From positions 2,356,001-2,420,000 of the forward strand of contig NC_003552.1 in assembly GCF_000007345.1 (NCBI RefSeq): a DNA stretch of 64,000 nucleotides, given 5' to 3'. The notes beneath the pieces are model-generated. The model made no database searches. It was not told where the DNA came from and was given only the letters and a program-made list of their open reading frames with translations. How positions within the stretch are numbered: the stretch's first letter is position 1; each line of letters opens with the position of its first letter. Shown one piece after another: positions 3,054-13,691 of the stretch. Position numbers and translations under genes: made by a program. The stretch comes from Methanosarcina acetivorans C2A. GTDB lineage: Archaea; Halobacteriota; Methanosarcinia; Methanosarcinales; Methanosarcinaceae.

Positions 3054-3665
3054 TCAGACAGTATTTATGTCATCCAGATAGACGACATCATGACATATCC
3101 TTTTGATTAAATTTTTTTCGTGGCTTACGACCAGTACTCCGATGTTCATTTTTTCAACCACGTCCACAACGATATTCCAGATTTGAGCCTGGGTAATGGC
3201 ATCCACCATTGTGGTTATTTCGTCCGCTATCAAAAATTTGGTTTCGGGACTTAAAGCCCTTGCAAGGGCAAATCTCTGGAGTTCACCCCCCGAAAGCTCA
3301 TTTGGCCAGCGGTTAAGCCATTTATTTTTTATTCCGAAGGAATCCAGAATATCCCGGGGGACCGTATGTCCTTCATTCAAAATATCCTTCATTTTCCATC
3401 TGGGGTTTACGGCTTTTTCAGGGTGCTGAAAGACAAGCTGGACCGGGTTATAACCTTTTGAGGGAATTGCTTTTTCGTCGAGACTTACCTTCCCTTGGTA
3501 ATTGTTTTCGTAGCCTGCCAGGATTTTACAGAGGGTCGATTTGCCGCTTCCGCTGTCCCCGATCAGTCCCAGCACCTCTCCACGACCTAAAGATATATTC
3601 ACATCGTTTAAAATCAAATTGCCTCTTTTGTATCCGAAACTGATATTCTCGGCCTTAAGGGACAT
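3054..3665 (-). CDS. ABC transporter ATPase (DppF/NikE type)
   Basis: This 203-residue nucleotide-binding subunit has a Walker A motif GDSGSGKST near residues 37-45, the ABC signature LSGGELQR near 123-130, Walker B FLIADE near 144-149 and the switch His in VVSHE near 178. It energises import through the two permeases encoded just upstream. It is shorter than typical DppF proteins (about 260-330) because it lacks the C-terminal oligopeptide-transporter tail. Its start overlaps the end of the preceding ATPase gene by 11 bases, so the two are translationally linked. It is the last gene of the minus-strand transporter operon. Confidence 0.9.
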   Translation of the reverse strand: MSLKAENISFGYKRGNLILNDVNISLGRGEVLGLIGDSGSGKSTLCKILAGYENNYQGKVSLDEKAIPSKGYNPVQLVFQHPEKAVNPRWKMKDILNEGHTVPRDILDSFGIKNKWLNRWPNELSGGELQRFALARALSPETKFLIADEITTMVDAITQAQIWNIVVDVVEKMNIGVLVVSHEKNLIKRICHDVVYLDDINTV

Positions 3666-4632
3666 TATTGCACCTCACCTCTCCTCCGTTTACCATTTTA
3701 AACTGGGGGATACCCTGAGAACAGAGCTCGTTCTTTTTAGAACACCTTTCATAAAAGACACATCTGTCAATAACTTCGTCCAGCATTGGCTGGTGCCCTT
3801 TAATTGCCTGGAATTTGTTCTGGGGAAGGGCATTCCAGAGAGCCCGGGTATATGGGTGCCTTAAATTCTCTCCGTCATTTTTGAAATCTTCAACATTCGC
3901 TACTTCCAGAACCGTCCCTGCATAGAATACTGCAATTTTATCCGAGATTTTTAACGCAGCTTCGATATCGTGAGTGATAAGGATCACCGCACAGCCCCTG
4001 TTTGCCATGTCCTTGAAGTAACTCAGGGTTTCATTCAGGGTTTTTTCGTCCAGGCCCGGAGTCGGTTCATCTGCAATTACAAGCTTTGCAGAACCCATAA
4101 CGGCAGTAGAAACCAGAACCCTCCGGGTCATCCCTCCCGAAAGCTCATGGGGAAACATTTTCTCAACATCCGGTTTCAAATCGTATTTCCGAAAAATATC
4201 CCGCTGAAGTTGCTTCATCATGCCTTCGTTTTCCTCATCAACTGAGCCTATTACCTGATTCGAAATTCGCATTAAAGGGTCCAGATAGGTTGTGGACTGA
4301 GGGACAAGCGCTATTTCTTTTCCCCTTATTTTTTCTTTAATCTGCTGAGTGAGTTTTTTGCCATCGTATTCCATATTCCCGGCAAGTTTCGCGTTTGAAG
4401 GCAAAATCCCTAAAATCGCATGAGCCAGAAGACTTTTACCGGATCCGCTCGAACCGACAACAGCCAAAACCTCGCCTCTGTAAGCTTCTATACTCAAATT
4501 ACAGATCACTTTTAACTCGGTTTGCCGGAGCCCGGCAGCGTATTGAATAAAAGAAAGGGAAAGGTCTTCTACTTTTAATAGAGGTTCGATCTCCTTCCTT
4601 TCTTCATTGTTTATTTCAGTTTTGTTTCCCAT
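3655..4632 (-). CDS. ABC transporter ATPase (DppD/NikD type)
   Basis: The product has 325 residues with Walker A GSSGSGKS near residue 57, signature LSGGMTRR near 166, Walker B LVIADEPTPG near 186 and the switch His in LITHD near 217. The C-terminal part keeps the cysteine-bearing tail of oligopeptide/nickel ATPases (FYERCSKKNELCSQG). It pairs with the shorter ATPase that follows. The gene lies 109 bases after the DppC-type permease gene, and the gap is filled by a tandem repeat. A peptide or a nickel chelate is the likely cargo; the sequence alone does not decide. Confidence 0.9.
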   Translation of the reverse strand: MGNKTEINNEERKEIEPLLKVEDLSLSFIQYAAGLRQTELKVICNLSIEAYRGEVLAVVGSSGSGKSLLAHAILGILPSNAKLAGNMEYDGKKLTQQIKEKIRGKEIALVPQSTTYLDPLMRISNQVIGSVDEENEGMMKQLQRDIFRKYDLKPDVEKMFPHELSGGMTRRVLVSTAVMGSAKLVIADEPTPGLDEKTLNETLSYFKDMANRGCAVILITHDIEAALKISDKIAVFYAGTVLEVANVEDFKNDGENLRHPYTRALWNALPQNKFQAIKGHQPMLDEVIDRCVFYERCSKKNELCSQGIPQFKMVNGGEVRCNNVP

Positions 4633-4662: not shown

Positions 4663-4760
4663 CGTGAGCACTTATTCGTGAGCACTTATTCGTGAGCACT
4701 TATTCGTGAGCACTTATTCGTGAGCACCTATTCATGAGCACTTATTCGTGAGCACTTTTT
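4663..4760 (+). repeat. 14-bp tandem repeat, 7 copies
   Basis: A 14-base unit (cgtgagcacttatt) is repeated six times with one- or two-base changes, plus a partial seventh copy. The last copy contains the stop and the final codons (Ser-Ala-His-Glu) of the DppC-type permease. The array therefore looks like repeated duplication of the gene's own 3' end into the gap before the ATPase gene. Copies start at 4663, 4677, 4691, 4705, 4719, 4733 and 4747. Confidence 0.9.
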
Positions 4761-5599
4761 GGATCCATCAATTTCCCCAAATTTTCTCCTATCATATCAA
4801 ATGCAAGGACCACAATCAGCAGGGATAAGCCCGGGAAGAAGGCAAGCCACCAGTATCCTGCCGAGAGATACCTCATAGATTCTGACAGAATTATGCCGAT
4901 TGCCGGTTCGTGGGGGGAAAGTCCGAACCCCAGGAATGTGACGGACGCTTCGTGCAAAATGGCATGGGGAAACAGCAAAATCGTACCCAGCAAGATCTGG
5001 GGGATTAGATGAGGCAGGATATGTTTTGTAGCTATCCACCACTTTGATTTGCCAAGGTTTCTGGAGATATGGATGTATTCCTGGGTTTTTAACTGCTTGA
5101 TTTCGGCCCTTACAACCCTGGTCAGGCTTGTCCAGTGCGTTAATGCAACCCCGACAATAACCCCTGTAGCTCCTCCTCCCAGGCCTATGGAAATAAGGAT
5201 TATTAACAGCAGGTGAGGGATTGAAAGAAAGAGGTCCACAAGCCAGGATACAAAAGAATCTGCGGTCTTTCCTGCACTTGAAAGCAGACCTAAAATTACG
5301 GTCAGAAAAGTACTGATTACGGAAGCAAAAGCTCCGATAACTATGCTCAGGCCCAGGCCTTCCAGGGTTCTTATAAACATGTCCCTTCCCATCCAGTCGG
5401 TCCCGAAGGGGTGTTCAAGGGATGGAGCAAGGTTTTTGGAACCAAAGTCCGTTGGTAAGGACTCGCCTTCTACAAGGAGGCTTGAAACCACAATTGCAAG
5501 CAGTAAAAGGGACGTGAAACCGATTATAAGAAACGTCTTCTGCCTTAAATTCAGTCCGGGGAATAAGCTTCTGTTAACGGTTACGACAGCAGTGCTCAT
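4742..5599 (-). CDS. ABC transporter permease (DppC/NikC type)
   Basis: This 285-residue inner-membrane permease has an N-terminal membrane segment (TFLIIGFTSLLLLAIVVSSLL) seen as TFLIIGFTSLLL then LAIVVSSLL, the DppC hallmark FGTDWMGRDMFIR near residues 65-77, and about five further membrane helices. The cytoplasmic coupling loop of the binding-protein-dependent transport family lies near residues 175-215. The start overlaps the end of the DppB-type gene (ATGA), showing coupled translation. It forms the channel together with that partner. Confidence 0.9.
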   Translation of the reverse strand: MSTAVVTVNRSLFPGLNLRQKTFLIIGFTSLLLLAIVVSSLLVEGESLPTDFGSKNLAPSLEHPFGTDWMGRDMFIRTLEGLGLSIVIGAFASVISTFLTVILGLLSSAGKTADSFVSWLVDLFLSIPHLLLIILISIGLGGGATGVIVGVALTHWTSLTRVVRAEIKQLKTQEYIHISRNLGKSKWWIATKHILPHLIPQILLGTILLFPHAILHEASVTFLGFGLSPHEPAIGIILSESMRYLSAGYWWLAFFPGLSLLIVVLAFDMIGENLGKLMDPKSAHE

Positions 5600-6588
5600 A
5601 TTGTTGTCTCCTGCTGTTTTATCCTCGGATCTATGAATTCATAGATAATGTCAGCAATGAGGTTTCCAGTAAAGACAAACACCGCACTTACAAGAACTAT
5701 TCCCAGAAGTAGAGGTACATCAGACATTAAGCCTGCTGCTACTGTAGCCCGCCCAATACCGGGATAGGAAAAGACCTGTTCAACCAGAACCGCACCGCCA
5801 AACAGTTCACTGAAACTTAAAAACTGCAGGGTAATGGCGGGGAGGGCAACGTTCCTAACCCCGTGCCTTAAGACAAGGTCCAGCCCTTTTTCACCTCTTG
5901 CCTTTGCAAATAACACATAATCGCTGGACATAACTTCGGTTAATTTTTCTCGGGTAAACATTGCAATCTGAGCAACACCGAGTAAACTCAAAGTCAGTGC
6001 AGGGAGGATTAAGTGCTCTATCCGGTCAAAAAAAGTCACGTTCTCAGCCGTAACCCCTATGGGTACGCTTAAACCTATAGGGAACCAGCCTAACTGCACG
6101 GAAAATATCATCAAAAAAACCAGGGCCAGCCAGAATGTCGGGGTGGCGGTTAAAATGTAACAGTAGGTTTTTATTGCCCGGTCAAACAGGGTCCCTTTAT
6201 GCATTCCGGAAGCGATTCCCAAAATGAAGCCCAGAACTCCTGAAATCATCCAGGAAGAAGCCATCAGAGCCAGAGACGCTGCAAACCTTTCTTTAATCAC
6301 GTCAGTAACAGGCATCCTGTAAATCAGTGAGACTCCGAAATCCCCTTTGAGAATATCTCCGGCCCAGTTCAGGAATTTCTCCTCTGGCGGCGTGTTAACT
6401 CCCCAGTATTCTTCAAGTTTGGCTTTATGCTCCGCACTCACCGCCATCTCTCCAAGATAAGCTCGAACGGGGTCTATAGGCGAGTATTGAATGAGCATGA
6501 AACTTACAAAAGAAACTATAAGCAAAAGGCTTATTAACCGGAGAATTTTTTTCCCTATAAAGCCTGATATTTTTGCATTTTCTGACAC
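5596..6588 (-). CDS. ABC transporter permease (DppB/NikB type)
   Basis: This 330-residue permease has an N-terminal helix followed by SPIDPVRAYLG, typical of DppB/NikB (FxxPGDP-like region), then five more helices. The coupling loop includes MFTREKLTEVMSSDYVLFAK followed by ARGEKGL, matching the family EAA-type motif. It is the first membrane component of the transporter operon, 231 bases downstream of the nearest binding-protein gene, so it may be read through from there or from its own promoter. Confidence 0.9.
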   Translation of the reverse strand: MSENAKISGFIGKKILRLISLLLIVSFVSFMLIQYSPIDPVRAYLGEMAVSAEHKAKLEEYWGVNTPPEEKFLNWAGDILKGDFGVSLIYRMPVTDVIKERFAASLALMASSWMISGVLGFILGIASGMHKGTLFDRAIKTYCYILTATPTFWLALVFLMIFSVQLGWFPIGLSVPIGVTAENVTFFDRIEHLILPALTLSLLGVAQIAMFTREKLTEVMSSDYVLFAKARGEKGLDLVLRHGVRNVALPAITLQFLSFSELFGGAVLVEQVFSYPGIGRATVAAGLMSDVPLLLGIVLVSAVFVFTGNLIADIIYEFIDPRIKQQETTI

Positions 6589-6819: not shown

Positions 6820-8463
6820 TCACTTACCTGAAGTCGAGCTGGATTCATCTATCCTTGTCCACTCATAGATATTTCCTAAAATATCCGACCCGGCATTCTG
6901 TTGCGGAGTCCCGAGATCCAGGGTTTCGTCCATAGCGTACAGATAATCCATTGTAACCAGCCATAACCAGGTTGCATCGCCTGCAGGCCCGTAACCGGTG
7001 CTCCCGTCGTATGCAGCTAACTGCCAGAATTTTGTGGCCTGGGCCTGGTCTGACGACCTCAGCGCCGATTCCAGATACCCATCTACCACAGGATTACTGT
7101 AAAGGCCCGGATTCATGTAAGTAGCGTCGGCTTCTTTACTGTGGTACTGGTGATACAGATTGAAGGTATCTATGCTGCTGTAAGCGTACAGGACAGCTGA
7201 ACTGTACTGGTTTGCGTAGATCTCGTCCCAGTTTGTGCCCATAAGGTTAATTTTTATACCCATTTTCCGGGCCTGCTCGCTTACAGCCACTGAAAGAGCC
7301 TGCCTTGTCTGGTCCGAGGAAGAATAGTACAGGTCAAATTCCGCCTCAGTCCCGTTCTTTTCCCGGATCCCGTCGCCATCAGAGTCTTCCCACCCTGCAG
7401 CTTCGAGGACTTTTATGGCTTCCTCAAGATTCGAGTCCTTAATTTTAGCTTCAGGGTTTCCGAATTCCCGCTGGTCCACTCCGGTATATTCCACATCTCC
7501 TTTTCCGTACAGGACTCCGTCAAGTATGGCTTTCCTGTCGATCCCCGTGTTCAAGGCTTTTCGAATTGTTATATCGGCTGTTACATTATTGCCTATAGGG
7601 TCTCCCTGAAGGCTTTTACTGCCGGTATCATACTGCGTCGGAAAAGAAACCCCAAAGGCTCTTGAGGAGGGAAGGGAGATAAAGTCGTACCCGTCTATGG
7701 TTTGATTTACATTGTTGATTTCGATTTCAGCTATGTCCACTTTCCTGGACTTTGCAGCTGCAAATGCAGTATCTTTATCTAGGAATAACATGGTTATTTT
7801 TTTGAAGTACGGCTTCTGTCCGTAGTAATCGGGATTGTATTCAAATATTGCCTGCTGGCTCCTATCCCACTGGACCAGCTTGTACGGGCCTGACCCAACA
7901 GGATTGCGCCCGTAGGTCTCTTTTTCATATGCATGTTCCGGCACGATTCCGACGTACCTGAGCCTCCATATGAAACTGGACTGAGGTTCCTGTAATTTGA
8001 ATTCGACTGCGGTATCATTTATTGCCCTGGCACTTTCAAGATTACTCATGTCCAGTTCGGAATTACTGCCAACTGCAGTATTGAAGGTAAACGCCACGTC
8101 GTTTGCAGTTAATTTTTCCCCGTCTGTGAATTTGATATCATCCCTTACATTTACGGTCCAGGTCTTCCCGTCGGGGCTGACAGAATAACCTGTAGCAAGA
8201 TCGTTAATTATACTCCCGTCATCAGCCGATTTAAAAAGGGTACTCTGTACCAGCGGCTCAAAATTCACATGCCCGCACCCCCAGCCCTGCAGCGGATCAA
8301 AACCTGTATCCGGTTCTCCAGTATGTGAATAAACATTCACAACAAGTTCATCGGAAGCTCCGGAAACCGAATTGACCGGCGCCCCGGATGACATAAAAAC
8401 TAAAATAAGCGCCAGAACTACAACTACTACCCCTAGCAGCAAATATTGCTGGTTTTTTTTAAT
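6820..8463 (-). CDS. ABC substrate-binding protein, SBP_bac_5 family, copy 1
   Basis: The 547-residue product belongs to the peptide/nickel binding-protein family 5. It has an N-terminal hydrophobic anchor (LLLGVVVVVLALILVFMSSG), no lipobox Cys, then the family segment GYSVSPDGKTWTVNVRDDIK near residue 113 and GSGPYKLVQWDRSQ. It should sit outside the membrane and deliver cargo to the permeases. I place the start at an ATT codon (8461-8463). A strong GGAGGAGGG site lies 6-7 bases upstream, an in-frame TAA immediately precedes the ATT, and the residues Lys-Lys-Asn-Gln-Gln-Tyr after it recur in both paralogues with synonymous changes. The first conventional start, TTG at 8442, is too far from the ribosome site. 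Confidence 0.85.
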   Translation of the reverse strand: MKKNQQYLLLGVVVVVLALILVFMSSGAPVNSVSGASDELVVNVYSHTGEPDTGFDPLQGWGCGHVNFEPLVQSTLFKSADDGSIINDLATGYSVSPDGKTWTVNVRDDIKFTDGEKLTANDVAFTFNTAVGSNSELDMSNLESARAINDTAVEFKLQEPQSSFIWRLRYVGIVPEHAYEKETYGRNPVGSGPYKLVQWDRSQQAIFEYNPDYYGQKPYFKKITMLFLDKDTAFAAAKSRKVDIAEIEINNVNQTIDGYDFISLPSSRAFGVSFPTQYDTGSKSLQGDPIGNNVTADITIRKALNTGIDRKAILDGVLYGKGDVEYTGVDQREFGNPEAKIKDSNLEEAIKVLEAAGWEDSDGDGIREKNGTEAEFDLYYSSSDQTRQALSVAVSEQARKMGIKINLMGTNWDEIYANQYSSAVLYAYSSIDTFNLYHQYHSKEADATYMNPGLYSNPVVDGYLESALRSSDQAQATKFWQLAAYDGSTGYGPAGDATWLWLVTMDYLYAMDETLDLGTPQQNAGSDILGNIYEWTRIDESSSTSGK

Positions 8464-8711
8464 TTAAATCCCTCCTCCTTCCTTAATGCATAATCAGGAC
8501 ATAGCCCAGCCTTACTCATTAGCCAGATATTTCTCAATTAGCCAGATATTTCTCAGGATCATTTTCTAGCCCAATCTTACTCATTAGCCCGGGTATTACT
8601 CATGATAACTTCCTGGCCCCTTATTACTCATGATCAGATCCTCAAGCTCTCCGGCAGGAAATCAAAAAGGAAAAAAGGGAGTTCAAGTAATGTCGAAACT
8701 TAACTCCCGGT
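8464..8711. other. spacer between binding-protein genes
   Basis: This 248-base gap contains the ribosome site of the copy-1 gene and imperfect direct repeats (attagccagatatttctca twice near 8518-8555, and tactcat words). It may hold a promoter for copy 1. No gene was seen. Confidence 0.4.
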
Positions 8712-10394
8712 TTAGTTTTCCGTGCGTTTCCATTCCAGGATGTTCCCGAAGATGTTTGCACCGTGAGGCTGTATTCTGGGGGTCCCTATATCCAGGTCCT
8801 CGTCCATAATGTAGACGTAATTGATGGTTGCCATCCAGAGCCAGGTAGCATCTCCTTTTTCGGAAAAGCCCGTTGTCCCGTCCCAGGCAGCAAGCTGCCA
8901 GTTTTCATTTGCAGCGTCCTGGTCAAAACTGGTTATGGCAGCTCTCAGGTAGCCGTCCACAGCAGGATTGCTGTACATTATTACGTTGTTGTAGTTTGAC
9001 GGGTCGTAGCTCTTGCTGTAATACCTCAAATAGATGTCAGTCGGGTCCAGAGAACCGTAACCGAAGACTACAGGAGTCGAATGGACAAGGGTATCAATTT
9101 CATTCCAGCTTTTACCCTCGACCTTAATGTTTATCCCAAGTTTTCTGGCTTCTTCGGAAACTGAAACTGCCAGTGCCTGCCTTTCCATTGCACTTGAAGG
9201 GTATAGCAGGGTAAACTCGGCTTTTTCTCCGTTCTTCTCAAGAATGCCATCCCCATCAGTATCTTCCCAGCCGGCTTCGGTTAAAATTTCTTTTGCACCT
9301 TCGAGGTCTCCGTCTTCAAAAATAGCTTCCTTATTACCCCAGGGTAATTTGTCAACACCCGTGAACTCCTCTTTCCCCTGCCCGTTCAAAGCTCCATTGA
9401 TCAGGACCTGCCTGTCTATCCCGATATTCAGGGCTTTTCTTATTGCAGCATCCGAGGTTACATTGTTTCCGATTGCATAGCCGTTTTCATTTTTCTTGCC
9501 CGTATTTGCCTGCAGGGGGAAGCTTATTCCCCGGGCATCAATAGAGTCAAGGGACACTATTTTCATCCCATCTACCTCCTGATAGGCGTACGAAGCCGGA
9601 ATTTCGGCAAGGTCGACCTGCCCTGCCCTCGCAGCCGCAAAAGCAGCATCAGAAGCCATAAAAAGCATGGTTATCTTTTTAAAGTACGGTTCCTGCCCGT
9701 AATAATCCGGGTTTGCTTCAAAGATGACCTGCTGCCCCTTATCCCACTGCACGAACATGTACGGGCCCGATCCTATAGGATTCTGCCCGTAAGATTCGCT
9801 GTAGGCGTGTTCGGGGACAATCCCCAGGGCTACGAGCTTATTGATGAAAGTAGATTGAGGGTCATTCAGGTAAAATTCGACCGTATAATTATCGATTGCA
9901 GAAGCGCTTTCCAGCATGGACAAGTCCAGACTCCCGCTGCCTTCTGCTGCCGTATTAAAGGTGAAGGCTACGTCCTCAGCAGTTAAAGGCACTCCGTCAT
10001 GGAATTTAACATCGTCCCTTATTGTAACCGTCCATTTTAACCCGTCACTGCTTACCGTATAATTCGTTGCCAGGTCATTGATCAGACTCGCCTGGCTGTC
10101 CAGTTTGAAAAGTGTACTCTGGACAAGGGGTTCACTGCTTTTGCCCCAGCCGCTAATAGGGTTGAAGCCTGCTTCGGGCTCTCCCCCATGGGTTCCTACG
10201 GCTGCTATAAGTTCATCCGACCCCGGAGAATTCAATTCGTCAACTTCTTCGGAGACCATTTCTCCGGCAAGCTGGGAAGCCTGGTCAACGGACTTCGAAT
10301 CTGCATCCGAACCGGAAATCGAACTGACAACAACAAAAGCCGCTATAATTATGATTACTGAGCCTATGAGCAAATATTGCTGGTTTTTCTTAAT
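8712..10394 (-). CDS. ABC substrate-binding protein, SBP_bac_5 family, copy 2
   Basis: This is a 560-residue paralogue of the neighbouring binding proteins. It has a membrane anchor (LLIGSVIIIIAAFVVVSSIS), an acidic linker, then GEPEAGFNPISGWG near residue 72, YTVSSDGLKWTVTIRDDVKF near 114 and GSGPYMFVQWDKGQQ. The start is placed at ATT (10392-10394). A GGAGGAG site lies about 5 bases upstream, an in-frame TGA occurs before it, and there is no ATG, GTG or TTG until codon 8. The shared N-terminus Lys-Lys-Asn-Gln-Gln-Tyr-Leu supports this start. Having several receptors for one permease set suggests different cargo ranges or conditions. Confidence 0.85.
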   Translation of the reverse strand: MKKNQQYLLIGSVIIIIAAFVVVSSISGSDADSKSVDQASQLAGEMVSEEVDELNSPGSDELIAAVGTHGGEPEAGFNPISGWGKSSEPLVQSTLFKLDSQASLINDLATNYTVSSDGLKWTVTIRDDVKFHDGVPLTAEDVAFTFNTAAEGSGSLDLSMLESASAIDNYTVEFYLNDPQSTFINKLVALGIVPEHAYSESYGQNPIGSGPYMFVQWDKGQQVIFEANPDYYGQEPYFKKITMLFMASDAAFAAARAGQVDLAEIPASYAYQEVDGMKIVSLDSIDARGISFPLQANTGKKNENGYAIGNNVTSDAAIRKALNIGIDRQVLINGALNGQGKEEFTGVDKLPWGNKEAIFEDGDLEGAKEILTEAGWEDTDGDGILEKNGEKAEFTLLYPSSAMERQALAVSVSEEARKLGINIKVEGKSWNEIDTLVHSTPVVFGYGSLDPTDIYLRYYSKSYDPSNYNNVIMYSNPAVDGYLRAAITSFDQDAANENWQLAAWDGTTGFSEKGDATWLWMATINYVYIMDEDLDIGTPRIQPHGANIFGNILEWKRTEN

Positions 10395-11004
10395 CGAAAC
10401 TCCTCCTCAACCTTTTCCTCAATTTAATATTAAAGTCCACAATTATTCTTACGGAAATTCACGAATCCATATTGTAATAACTGAAAGACCTTTTTTTTGA
10501 ATAATACTTTAAAAAATAAAAATAACACTAAAGTATTACTTTCTCAACTAATAATTATACTGAATTTAATAAATTCATTTTAAGTATATATTCTTTCCGA
10601 AAAAAATGTATTACTAAGATATTCCTTTTCCAGCATTTTGTATTACTTGATATGAAAATCATCTTTTACATAGATCTTTAGTTAGCTGTAACCATCATAT
10701 GCTGAAAAACAGGAATTAAAATAGGAATTAAAACAGCAAGTAAAACAGCAAGTAAAACAGCAAGTAAAACATAAAGAACGAATAAAAAATTGCCAGTCTG
10801 CACTCAGTAACCGGAATAGCCTCAAGTGCAAATAAAAAGCAGTTAAATATGAAAATAAAACTTTATGGAGGTAAAAGCTCTCCATAAGCTCATTTTAACC
10901 TGAAAATTTCATGATTTCTCTATTTATGAGATCTTTATTATTCTCTTTTCGATCATTTGCTCCTGATTCTCTCCTCTCCATTCTCTCCCGAGCTTGATTC
11001 GATC
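10395..11004. other. 610-base intergenic region with short tandem repeats
   Basis: This region separates two binding-protein genes and is AT-rich at 10490-10620. A 12-base tandem repeat (aacagcaagtaa) lies at about 10733-10772. Open frames here translate only this repeat and have no family resemblance. It is likely to hold the promoter of the copy-2 gene. Confidence 0.5.
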
Positions 11005-12609
11005 TCAGTTTATGCGTTTCCAATCGTAGATATTTCCATATGGGTCTCCTCCATGAGGCTGGGTTTTGGGAGTACCTATGTCCAGAGTGTCATCAACAAG
11101 GAAAATATAGTTCGGATCTATAATGTATAATTTAGCTGCATCTCCTCTTGCCGAAAAACCGGTGCTACCGTCCCATGCAGCTAATTTAACGTAGTTGTAC
11201 GCCTCTTCTAAAGTTGAACTGTTTTGGGACGCTATCAGGTAAGCATCAACTTTCGGGTTATTGTAATACCCTGTATTACTATATTCGCCTCCGGCAAGTG
11301 AGCTGAGGTAGGAGGTGTATACGGGGTCCAGGTCATTGGTCCCATAGCCCGAGATTGAAGGGTTTGCATACTTTACAGTGATTAGTTCATTCGAACTCTT
11401 CCCTTCAGGGATTAGCTCAATTCCGAATTTTACAACCTGATCTGCAAGGGCAAGGGCGAGAGCCTGACGGTCAGGGTTATTTGAAGGATAATAAAGCATA
11501 AGGGATGCCTTCAGCCCATTTTTCTCGACTATCCCGTCTCCATCAGTATCGGTCCACCCGCCTTCTTCCAAAATTCTTACAGCTTCCTCCGGGTCTGCAT
11601 CTTCAACCATAGCTTCCGGATTTACCCAGGGAAGGTGATCTACCCCGGTAAGCTCCTTGTCCCCAAAACCGTTCAGCACGTCGTCAATAAGCGACTGCCG
11701 ATCTATTCCCACATGCAGGGCTTTTCGGACAGCAAGATCCGATGTGATATTGTTTCCAATCGGATAGCCGTCTTTAGTTTTATTACCTGTATCCGGAGTC
11801 AGTGGCAGTGAGATGTAAGTAGAGTCGTATGAAGCTACAGGCACCACTTTCATGCCCTCTACTTCTTCTCTTGCGCTTGTTGCAGTAATCTTTGCAAAGT
11901 CAACGTCCCCTTTCTTTGCAGCAGCAAAAGCAGCGTCATTTTCCAGATAGAGAATGGTAAATTTCTTAAAATAAGGTTTCTGCCCATAATAGTCCTCATT
12001 TCTCTCAAATATCGTCTGCTGCCCCTTATCCCACTGAACAAATTTATAAGGCCCGGACCCTATCGGATTCTGTCCATAAGAATCATTATAAGCGTGCTCC
12101 GGAACAATCCCCAGCCTCCCAAGCGTGTTGATAAAAGTTGCGCGAGGATTTTTCAGGGTGAACTGCACAGCAGTATCATTTAACGCTTCAGCCCTCTCAA
12201 GTGCCGTCAGGTCCAGATATCCCGCCGATACCGCCGCCGTATTAAACGAGAAAGCCACATCTTCCGCAGTCAATGCCACTCCATCAGTAAATTTGACATC
12301 ATCCCTTATGGTAACAGTCCAGACCAAACTGTCCTCACTAACAGAATACCCCGTAGCTAAATCATTAACAAGGGACATGTTACTATCCCACTTGAAAAGC
12401 GTACTCTGAATCAAAGGCTCATGATAAGTCCCCCAGCCATACATCGGATCAAAGCCCGCCTCCGGTTCCCCTCCATGAGCCGAAGCCGCCGAAATCAATT
12501 CATCCGGGCTCCGGGCAGAATTGCTTGGCACTGAAGTGTATGCCAGAGTAGCAATTGCTAAAACCACAAATATTATTCCCATGATCAGGTACTGCTGATT
12601 CCTCTTAAT
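11005..12609 (-). CDS. ABC substrate-binding protein, SBP_bac_5 family, copy 3
   Basis: The third paralogue (534 residues) has an N-terminal anchor (GIIFVVLAIATLAYTS), GGEPEAGFDPMYGWG near residue 43, and GSGPYKFVQWDKGQQ. The start is placed at ATT (12607-12609) after a GGAGGAGGG site. The preceding in-frame codons back to a TAA contain no conventional start, and the N-terminus Lys-Arg-Asn-Gln-Gln-Tyr-Leu aligns with both other copies. The next ATG (12582) lies 9 codons downstream and far from the ribosome site. This is the promoter-proximal gene of the seven-gene minus-strand cluster. Confidence 0.85.
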   Translation of the reverse strand: MKRNQQYLIMGIIFVVLAIATLAYTSVPSNSARSPDELISAASAHGGEPEAGFDPMYGWGTYHEPLIQSTLFKWDSNMSLVNDLATGYSVSEDSLVWTVTIRDDVKFTDGVALTAEDVAFSFNTAAVSAGYLDLTALERAEALNDTAVQFTLKNPRATFINTLGRLGIVPEHAYNDSYGQNPIGSGPYKFVQWDKGQQTIFERNEDYYGQKPYFKKFTILYLENDAAFAAAKKGDVDFAKITATSAREEVEGMKVVPVASYDSTYISLPLTPDTGNKTKDGYPIGNNITSDLAVRKALHVGIDRQSLIDDVLNGFGDKELTGVDHLPWVNPEAMVEDADPEEAVRILEEGGWTDTDGDGIVEKNGLKASLMLYYPSNNPDRQALALALADQVVKFGIELIPEGKSSNELITVKYANPSISGYGTNDLDPVYTSYLSSLAGGEYSNTGYYNNPKVDAYLIASQNSSTLEEAYNYVKLAAWDGSTGFSARGDAAKLYIIDPNYIFLVDDTLDIGTPKTQPHGGDPYGNIYDWKRIN

Positions 12610-13108
12610 AAGAATCCCTCCTCCTTTTTACAAAAAACCCGTTATTTCGTGAGTATTTTCCAGCCATAAACAAGTCCAGAAACCTCCAGATAACATGTTT
12701 GAGTCTAAAAATAACATTTAAGCACTACTTTTCTAAAGAAAATTATTACTCCCTGTTTAGAACCAAATTTCTATAAATAAGTTCTGAAATTTTTGTGTTA
12801 CTAATATCAACTTAAGAAGTAGTAAAGTACGATTAAATTATAATTTTGGCCAGTTAAGAAATTTTTTGAGAACTTGCAATAAAACGCACATGAAATTCTT
12901 CGAATAACAGGCACAAAAAGATGAAAGTACGCATGGACTTTCATACCAAAAGAATGATACCTGCACAAATTCACAAAAAAGATTCAGTAAAAAGAATTGA
13001 AACTATATGCTGATGAAAAAGGTTACACGCACAACAGTAGCAATCAAAAACAAAAGTTTAATAGAAAGAAAAGCATATTTTGAGATGTCTCCATACCACT
13101 ATAACCCT
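12610..13108. other. intergenic region between transporter and CRISPR leader
   Basis: This stretch should contain the promoter of the copy-3 binding protein gene, reading leftward. It shows short repeated words (cacaaaaaga near 12912 and 12973) but no gene. Confidence 0.4.
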
Positions 13109-13217: not shown

Positions 13218-13691
13218 ATTCGAGAGCAAGATCCACTAAAACAAGGATTGAAACCAATATGTGTTGAGTTGTCTGCGTCCCGTGGGTCACATTCGAGAGC
13301 AAGATCCACTAAAACAAGGATTGAAACCACACATGAATTATGAGATTGGGAAACAGAATTATTATTCGAGAGCAAGATCCACTAAAACAAGGATTGAAAC
13401 TATGCTGTAGCCACCAATAACGATGCTGCAAACACATTCGAGAGCAAGATCCACTAAAACAAGGATTGAAACTTGCAGGGGTAATCATGACTATACAATT
13501 AAGAAACAATTCGAGAGCAAGATCCACTAAAACAAGGATTGAAACTGAATGCTGTAATAGCTGTACTTTTAATTTCCATTAATTCGAGAGCAAGATCCAC
13601 TAAAACAAGGATTGAAACCGGTAACCATCACTTTTGAAATTTCCTCTTAACATTATTCGAGAGCAAGATCCACTAAAACAAGGATTGAAAC
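13218..13691 (+). CRISPR. CRISPR array 1: 7 repeats, 6 spacers
   Basis: Seven 37-base repeats start at 13218, 13291, 13364, 13436, 13509, 13582 and 13655, with 35-36-base spacers. Each begins attcgagagcaag and ends aaggattgaaac, so processed crRNAs transcribed from the plus strand would carry the 8-base tag ATTGAAAC. The repeat differs from that of array 2 by one base (A instead of C at position 6). All seven look identical. No cas gene is adjacent; processing most likely relies on the Cas6 encoded at 25.4 kb or on one elsewhere in the genome. Confidence 0.97.

Follow-up and report, generated by a model that had tools for sequence, protein, structure and literature searches.

Analysis of a 64,000-nucleotide stretch of the Methanosarcina acetivorans C2A genome (the window; positions 2356001–2420000 of the 5,751,492-base single contig) indicated that three genes encoding ABC-transporter binding proteins open with ATT instead of a canonical start codon. 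From comparison with relatives, we are highly confident that this codon, which is ATT, ATC or ATA (ATH) across the genus, is the true translation start. The combined reading, that the genes start at ATT and that the codon has been kept by selection for a capped output or for sensitivity to initiation stringency, is considered likely. The features of the three genes, all on the minus strand, are listed below; here and throughout, coordinates are in window numbering unless marked as genome positions.

8461..8463, minus strand: ATT start codon of gene 1 (sequence and relatives)
8464..8466, minus strand: in-frame TAA stop codon abutting the ATT of gene 1 (sequence)
8471..8475, minus strand: Shine-Dalgarno (SD) motif GGAGG of gene 1, 7 nt 5' of ATT (pattern match)
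6820..8463, minus strand: binding-protein gene 1, SBP_bac_5, YntA-like, 547 amino acids counted from ATT
10392..10394, minus strand: ATT start codon of gene 2 (sequence and relatives)
10402..10406, minus strand: SD motif GGAGG of gene 2, 7 nt 5' of ATT (pattern match)
10407..10409, minus strand: upstream in-frame TGA stop codon of gene 2 (sequence)
8712..10394, minus strand: binding-protein gene 2, SBP_bac_5, YntA-like, 560 amino acids counted from ATT
12607..12609, minus strand: ATT start codon of gene 3; another in-frame ATT lies at 12613–12615
12617..12621, minus strand: SD motif GGAGG of gene 3, 7 nt 5' of ATT (pattern match)
12628..12630, minus strand: upstream in-frame TAA stop codon of gene 3 (sequence)
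11005..12609, minus strand: binding-protein gene 3, SBP_bac_5, 534 amino acids counted from ATT

The leaders read GGAGG-GATTTAA-ATT in gene 1, TGA GGA GGA GTT TCG ATT in gene 2 and TAA AAA GGA GGA GGG ATT CTT ATT in gene 3, with 0, 4 and 6 codons, respectively, separating the in-frame stop from ATT. A preliminary description of this DNA had reported three genes opening at ATT behind a GGAGG, in-frame stops shortly upstream with no ATG, GTG or TTG in between, and a TAA in direct contact with the ATT of the first copy (8466–8464); the sequence bears out each of these points for the genes concerned. Its estimate of 5–7 bases between the SD motif and ATT was right as to the site and could be narrowed to exactly 7 nt in all three genes, which is also the modal GGAGG-to-ATG spacing in 2.0 Mb of the M. 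acetivorans genome.

Protein searches located relatives in most Methanosarcina genomes. The same positions in other members of the genus had been suggested as the place to look, and a pattern search there (SD, spacer and N-terminus, with the start set as ATH and one mismatch permitted) recovered 42 gene copies, spread over 23 of the 31 genomes, that start with ATT (32), ATC (9) or ATA (1) and never with ATG; the same codons appeared in two independent listings in which the start codon was unset or ATG was allowed. The ATH codon always lay 7 nt past GGRGG in these copies, and ATT was also present in two genomes of the sister genus (L065/L283 and L086/L282). On this comparison, conservation in 42 copies from 23 genomes excludes a chance origin of the ATT starts. 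Orthologues outside Methanosarcina and the sister genus start with ATG and carry a lipoprotein-type signal, while the mature part is approximately 70–78% identical. Because the Methanolobus orthologues (L081–L083) read GAGG-7nt-ATG-AAA-AA, with Lys-Lys after the ATG, the ancestral start was probably ATG at the same position. An N-terminal cassette common to unrelated genes was also considered and rejected: the pattern of SD and N-terminus matched nothing beyond these 42 copies, with 1–3 in any one genome, as expected of a single gene family.

The start site was compared in detail in 37 distinct binding-protein genes. The first two positions of the start codon are invariant, and position −5 is T in 37/37. 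Codons 2–7, in which variation is mainly synonymous, are under purifying selection: the share of differing pairs that are synonymous is 0.45 in frame, compared with 0.30 in the +1 frame, 0.06 in the +2 frame and 0.18 in the upstream stretch. The preliminary description had already noted synonymous differences in the conserved N-terminus of the three genes. Translation could in principle begin further downstream, at TTG codon 8 in copies 1 and 2 or ATG codon 10 in copy 3, leaving ATT in an untranslated leader, as these are the first canonical in-frame codons; the preliminary description had named initiation there as what would overturn its proposal. These codons are not conserved, however: the first canonical codon is codon 8 in 13/37 genes and is spread over codons 9 to 177 in the remainder, and an SD motif precedes it in just 2/37. 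Such a start would also drop the Lys/Arg n-region and leave GGAGG about 28 nt away, and codons 2–7 evolve like coding sequence. We therefore regard a downstream start as very improbable.

Slightly less probable still is initiation further upstream, combined with stop read-through or frameshifting, to give a longer protein in which the ATH codon encodes an internal isoleucine. The variation among ATT, ATC and ATA does resemble isoleucine synonymy, and the frame is open upstream in some relatives; but TAA, TAG or TGA abuts the codon in 16/37 genes and its upstream neighbour varies widely in the others, ATA occurs once in 37 genes here yet is common at other isoleucine columns, and ATG occupies the corresponding position in some distant orthologues. 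A normal start masked by a sequencing error, frameshift or pseudogene, raised as a caveat in the preliminary description, has a negligible probability, since independent genomes agree, both across 23 Methanosarcina species and in the sister genus, and the reading frames are long and intact. In-frame synonymy, unconserved downstream codons, in-frame upstream starts in only 6/37 genes and abutting stops thus jointly make downstream, read-through, frameshift and sequencing-error starts all unlikely.

The trait is not unique to the binding-protein locus. The iron-sulfur (Fe-S) assembly ATPase gene sufC, outside the window (genome position 1116606, minus strand; L153:15875–16606) and followed by a SufB/D-like gene as judged by eye, has GAGGTG and ATT in 28/28 Methanosarcina genomes where tblastn located it, frequently with TAA or TAG abutting the ATT. 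Putative sufC orthologues identified elsewhere by pattern alone have ATT in four genomes of genus g5 and in G035 and G032, and ATG in G034. A stop codon abuts the start in 13/24 sufC genes and in the 16/37 binding-protein genes mentioned above, vs. 4/114 GGAGG-ATG genes (Fisher p 2e-8 for binding-protein against GGAGG-ATG genes, shared ancestry being ignored). A DUF362/4Fe-4S (ferredoxin) gene, also outside the window (genome position 4252096, plus strand; L220:12096–13199), starts with ACG. When the orthologues are aligned, this position is ACG in 9 Methanosarcina, M. acetivorans included, and ATG in 13. Near-cognate starts thus appear to work in the genus and can be exchanged for ATG.

A wider survey of SD-linked non-canonical starts covered 2.4 Mb (42%) of the genome, and some of its candidates will be false. 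Candidate ACG starts follow GGAGG in the genes of two large secreted DUF3344 proteins (genome positions 2170252 and 2117107, minus strand; L176 and L173), whose predicted signal peptides begin at the ACG codon. Single candidates at genome positions 396260 (minus), 1142634 (plus), 3105405 (minus) and 3342554 (minus) comprise an ATT start (NosD-type secreted protein), an ATA start (aspartate dehydrogenase), an ATC start (MFS) and a CTG start (ABC ATPase). Aspartate dehydrogenase was dropped as a genus-wide case and is not counted as conserved, because the ATA pattern was present in only 4 genomes (M. acetivorans and 3 others). The conservation checks covered sufC, the DUF362 gene and this dehydrogenase.

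Retention of the near-cognate codon by selection appears reasonably likely. The tree of the 37 proteins requires at least 5 changes among ATT, ATC and ATA and none to ATG. In a survey of bacteria and archaea that covered 36 genome groups, a single change to AUU was reconstructed among 61,358 ancestral AUG starts, and changes of prokaryotic start codons toward AUG were commoner than changes away from it (PMC5622118). The alternation of ACG and ATG in the DUF362 gene means that reversion is possible, so that its absence from the binding-protein genes and sufC points to selection; that both families have kept ATH, together with the rarity of changes to AUU, suggests the same.

The ATT start could instead be real but neutral, with a very strong SD motif sufficing for initiation and the codon persisting by inheritance, without regulatory meaning. 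Strong SD motifs in all copies, near-cognate starts in several unrelated genes of M. acetivorans and the ACG/ATG alternation in DUF362 are all compatible with this. We nevertheless consider neutrality unlikely, though not negligibly so, given that ATG, one base away, has not been regained in either family in Methanosarcina (42 binding-protein copies, 28 sufC genes), that prokaryotic starts move toward AUG more often than they leave it, and that the codon has switched at least 5 times among ATT, ATC and ATA.

Several observations weigh against initiation at a selectively maintained ATT. G is also missing from 10/72 fourfold-degenerate columns (14%) in the same proteins, so that its absence from the third position of the start codon may be due to chance and was dropped as sole proof of selection. 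An in-frame canonical codon lies within 20 codons upstream in 6/37 genes, in 3 of which it is a TTG abutting ATT, and the case for initiation at ATT is one of sequence comparison. Furthermore, cells generally require more of a binding protein than of its permease, so that deliberate weakening of its translation would not be the obvious design.

For initiation at ATT and its selective retention, the following mechanism is proposed. Bound at the full-strength GGAGG, the small ribosomal subunit would have the AUU 7 nt downstream in its P site, where initiator Met-tRNA(CAU) would pair with it despite the third-position mismatch; this is the simplest mechanism for starting at AUH. The product would be a membrane-anchored receptor whose start, Met-Lys-Lys/Arg-Asn-Gln-Gln-Tyr, would form the positive n-region of a signal/anchor segment. 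Selection would have retained the near-cognate codon from before the split between Methanosarcina and its sister genus, the most likely benefit being a capped output or sensitivity to initiation stringency, with aIF1 as the obvious candidate factor. Archaeal aIF1 destabilises initiation complexes on non-AUG codons (PMC6237735; PMC7531240), and IF3 does likewise in bacteria, repressing infC (AUU/AUC) and sigR (GTC) (PMC5472188). By analogy with these factors, a reduced or stringency-dependent output would be expected. We infer initiation at ATT, decoding as Met, lowered efficiency and control by some factor; the earlier suggestion that translation of these receptors is deliberately weak or controlled is plausible and finds only indirect support, in the persistence of ATH through at least 5 codon switches in genomes where the DUF362 gene does alternate with ATG, while regulation dependent on aIF1 specifically is put forward tentatively, as a possibility we rather doubt. 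More speculative, and improbable in our view, is that near-cognate starts gate a small metal/Fe-S set (nickel-type receptors, sufC and DUF362/4Fe-4S), with stringency set by aIF1, or by ABCE1 as an Fe-S recycling factor, acting as a genus-wide translational switch.

An RNA fold hiding the start was not indicated, as 90-nt folds of the three starts gained no stability over shuffled sequences (z 0.16, 0.26 and −0.11). An aragorn scan for a special AUU-reading initiator tRNA, covering 2.4 Mb, reported 23 tRNAs, none shown with anticodon GAT, AAT or CAT, and was uninformative.

The three proteins matched Pfam SBP_bac_5 (PF00496) with 232.7, 262.2 and 248.3 bits (gathering cut-off 32.4). Against the NikA equivalog (TIGR02294) they scored 165, 136 and 128 bits, all well under the cut-off of 393 bits, so that "nickel-type" denotes resemblance, not assignment. 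The hydrophobic segment at the N-terminus of all three M. acetivorans copies lacks a lipobox cysteine. Fifteen other SBP_bac_5 paralogues in the genome have ordinary canonical starts, as do the neighbouring transporter genes:

5596..6588, minus strand: ABC permease, Opp/NikB type, ordinary GTG start (same gene group)
4742..5599, minus strand: ABC permease, Opp/NikC type, ordinary ATG start
3655..4632, minus strand: ABC ATPase, OppD/NikD type, ordinary ATG start
3054..3665, minus strand: ABC ATPase, NikE type, ordinary ATG start

Gene 3 (11005–12609) falls outside both main paralogue groups of Methanosarcina, on a long branch (0.98), and seems to be species-specific among the genomes searched. 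Upstream of it, from window position 13225 onward, lies a CRISPR-like array with the repeat ATTCGAGAGCAAGATCCACTAAAACAAGGATTGAAAC.

AUU starts are extremely rare, and AUH would here be kept in several unrelated families of one genetically tractable archaeal genus. Small ORF starts reported from Ribo-seq of Methanosarcina mazei were ATG, GTG, TTG and CTG (PMC11456600), and in the literature searched we found no report pairing Methanosarcina with AUU/ATT or ACG start codons. Our reading implies misannotated gene starts in a model methanogen, as ATH starts escape the usual start-codon rules. It would also provide an archaeal equivalent of infC in which to study how aIF1 secures start-codon fidelity.

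Among known proteins, the nearest solved structures are those of the Yersinia nickel-binding protein YntA (PDB 4ofl and 3ry3; E about 1e-118 and 1e-113), with homology to YpYntA spanning the full length. The likeness extends to the Opp/Nik-type permeases and ATPases adjoining the genes; the proteins described here score below the NCBIfam NikA equivalog cut-offs and are nickel-type by sequence resemblance only. With respect to the start codon, Streptomyces sigR is similar in that it does not encode an initiation factor and its conserved start is non-canonical (PMC5472188), but its start is GTC, not AUH, it is bacterial, and its limit on expression was shown by mutation, whereas such a limit in the binding-protein genes is a prediction from sequence. 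The closest parallel is infC, encoding IF3, in which AUH is conserved instead of AUG, as AUU in E. coli and AUC in Streptomyces, with both AUU and AUC among relatives (PMC5472188). The binding-protein genes share with it an AUU, AUC or AUA codon, an SD motif at normal spacing, the lack of an available canonical start, and conservation across species. They differ in that infC is bacterial and autoregulated by its own product IF3, whereas these genes encode archaeal ABC-transporter receptors and the corresponding candidate factor is aIF1, not IF3.

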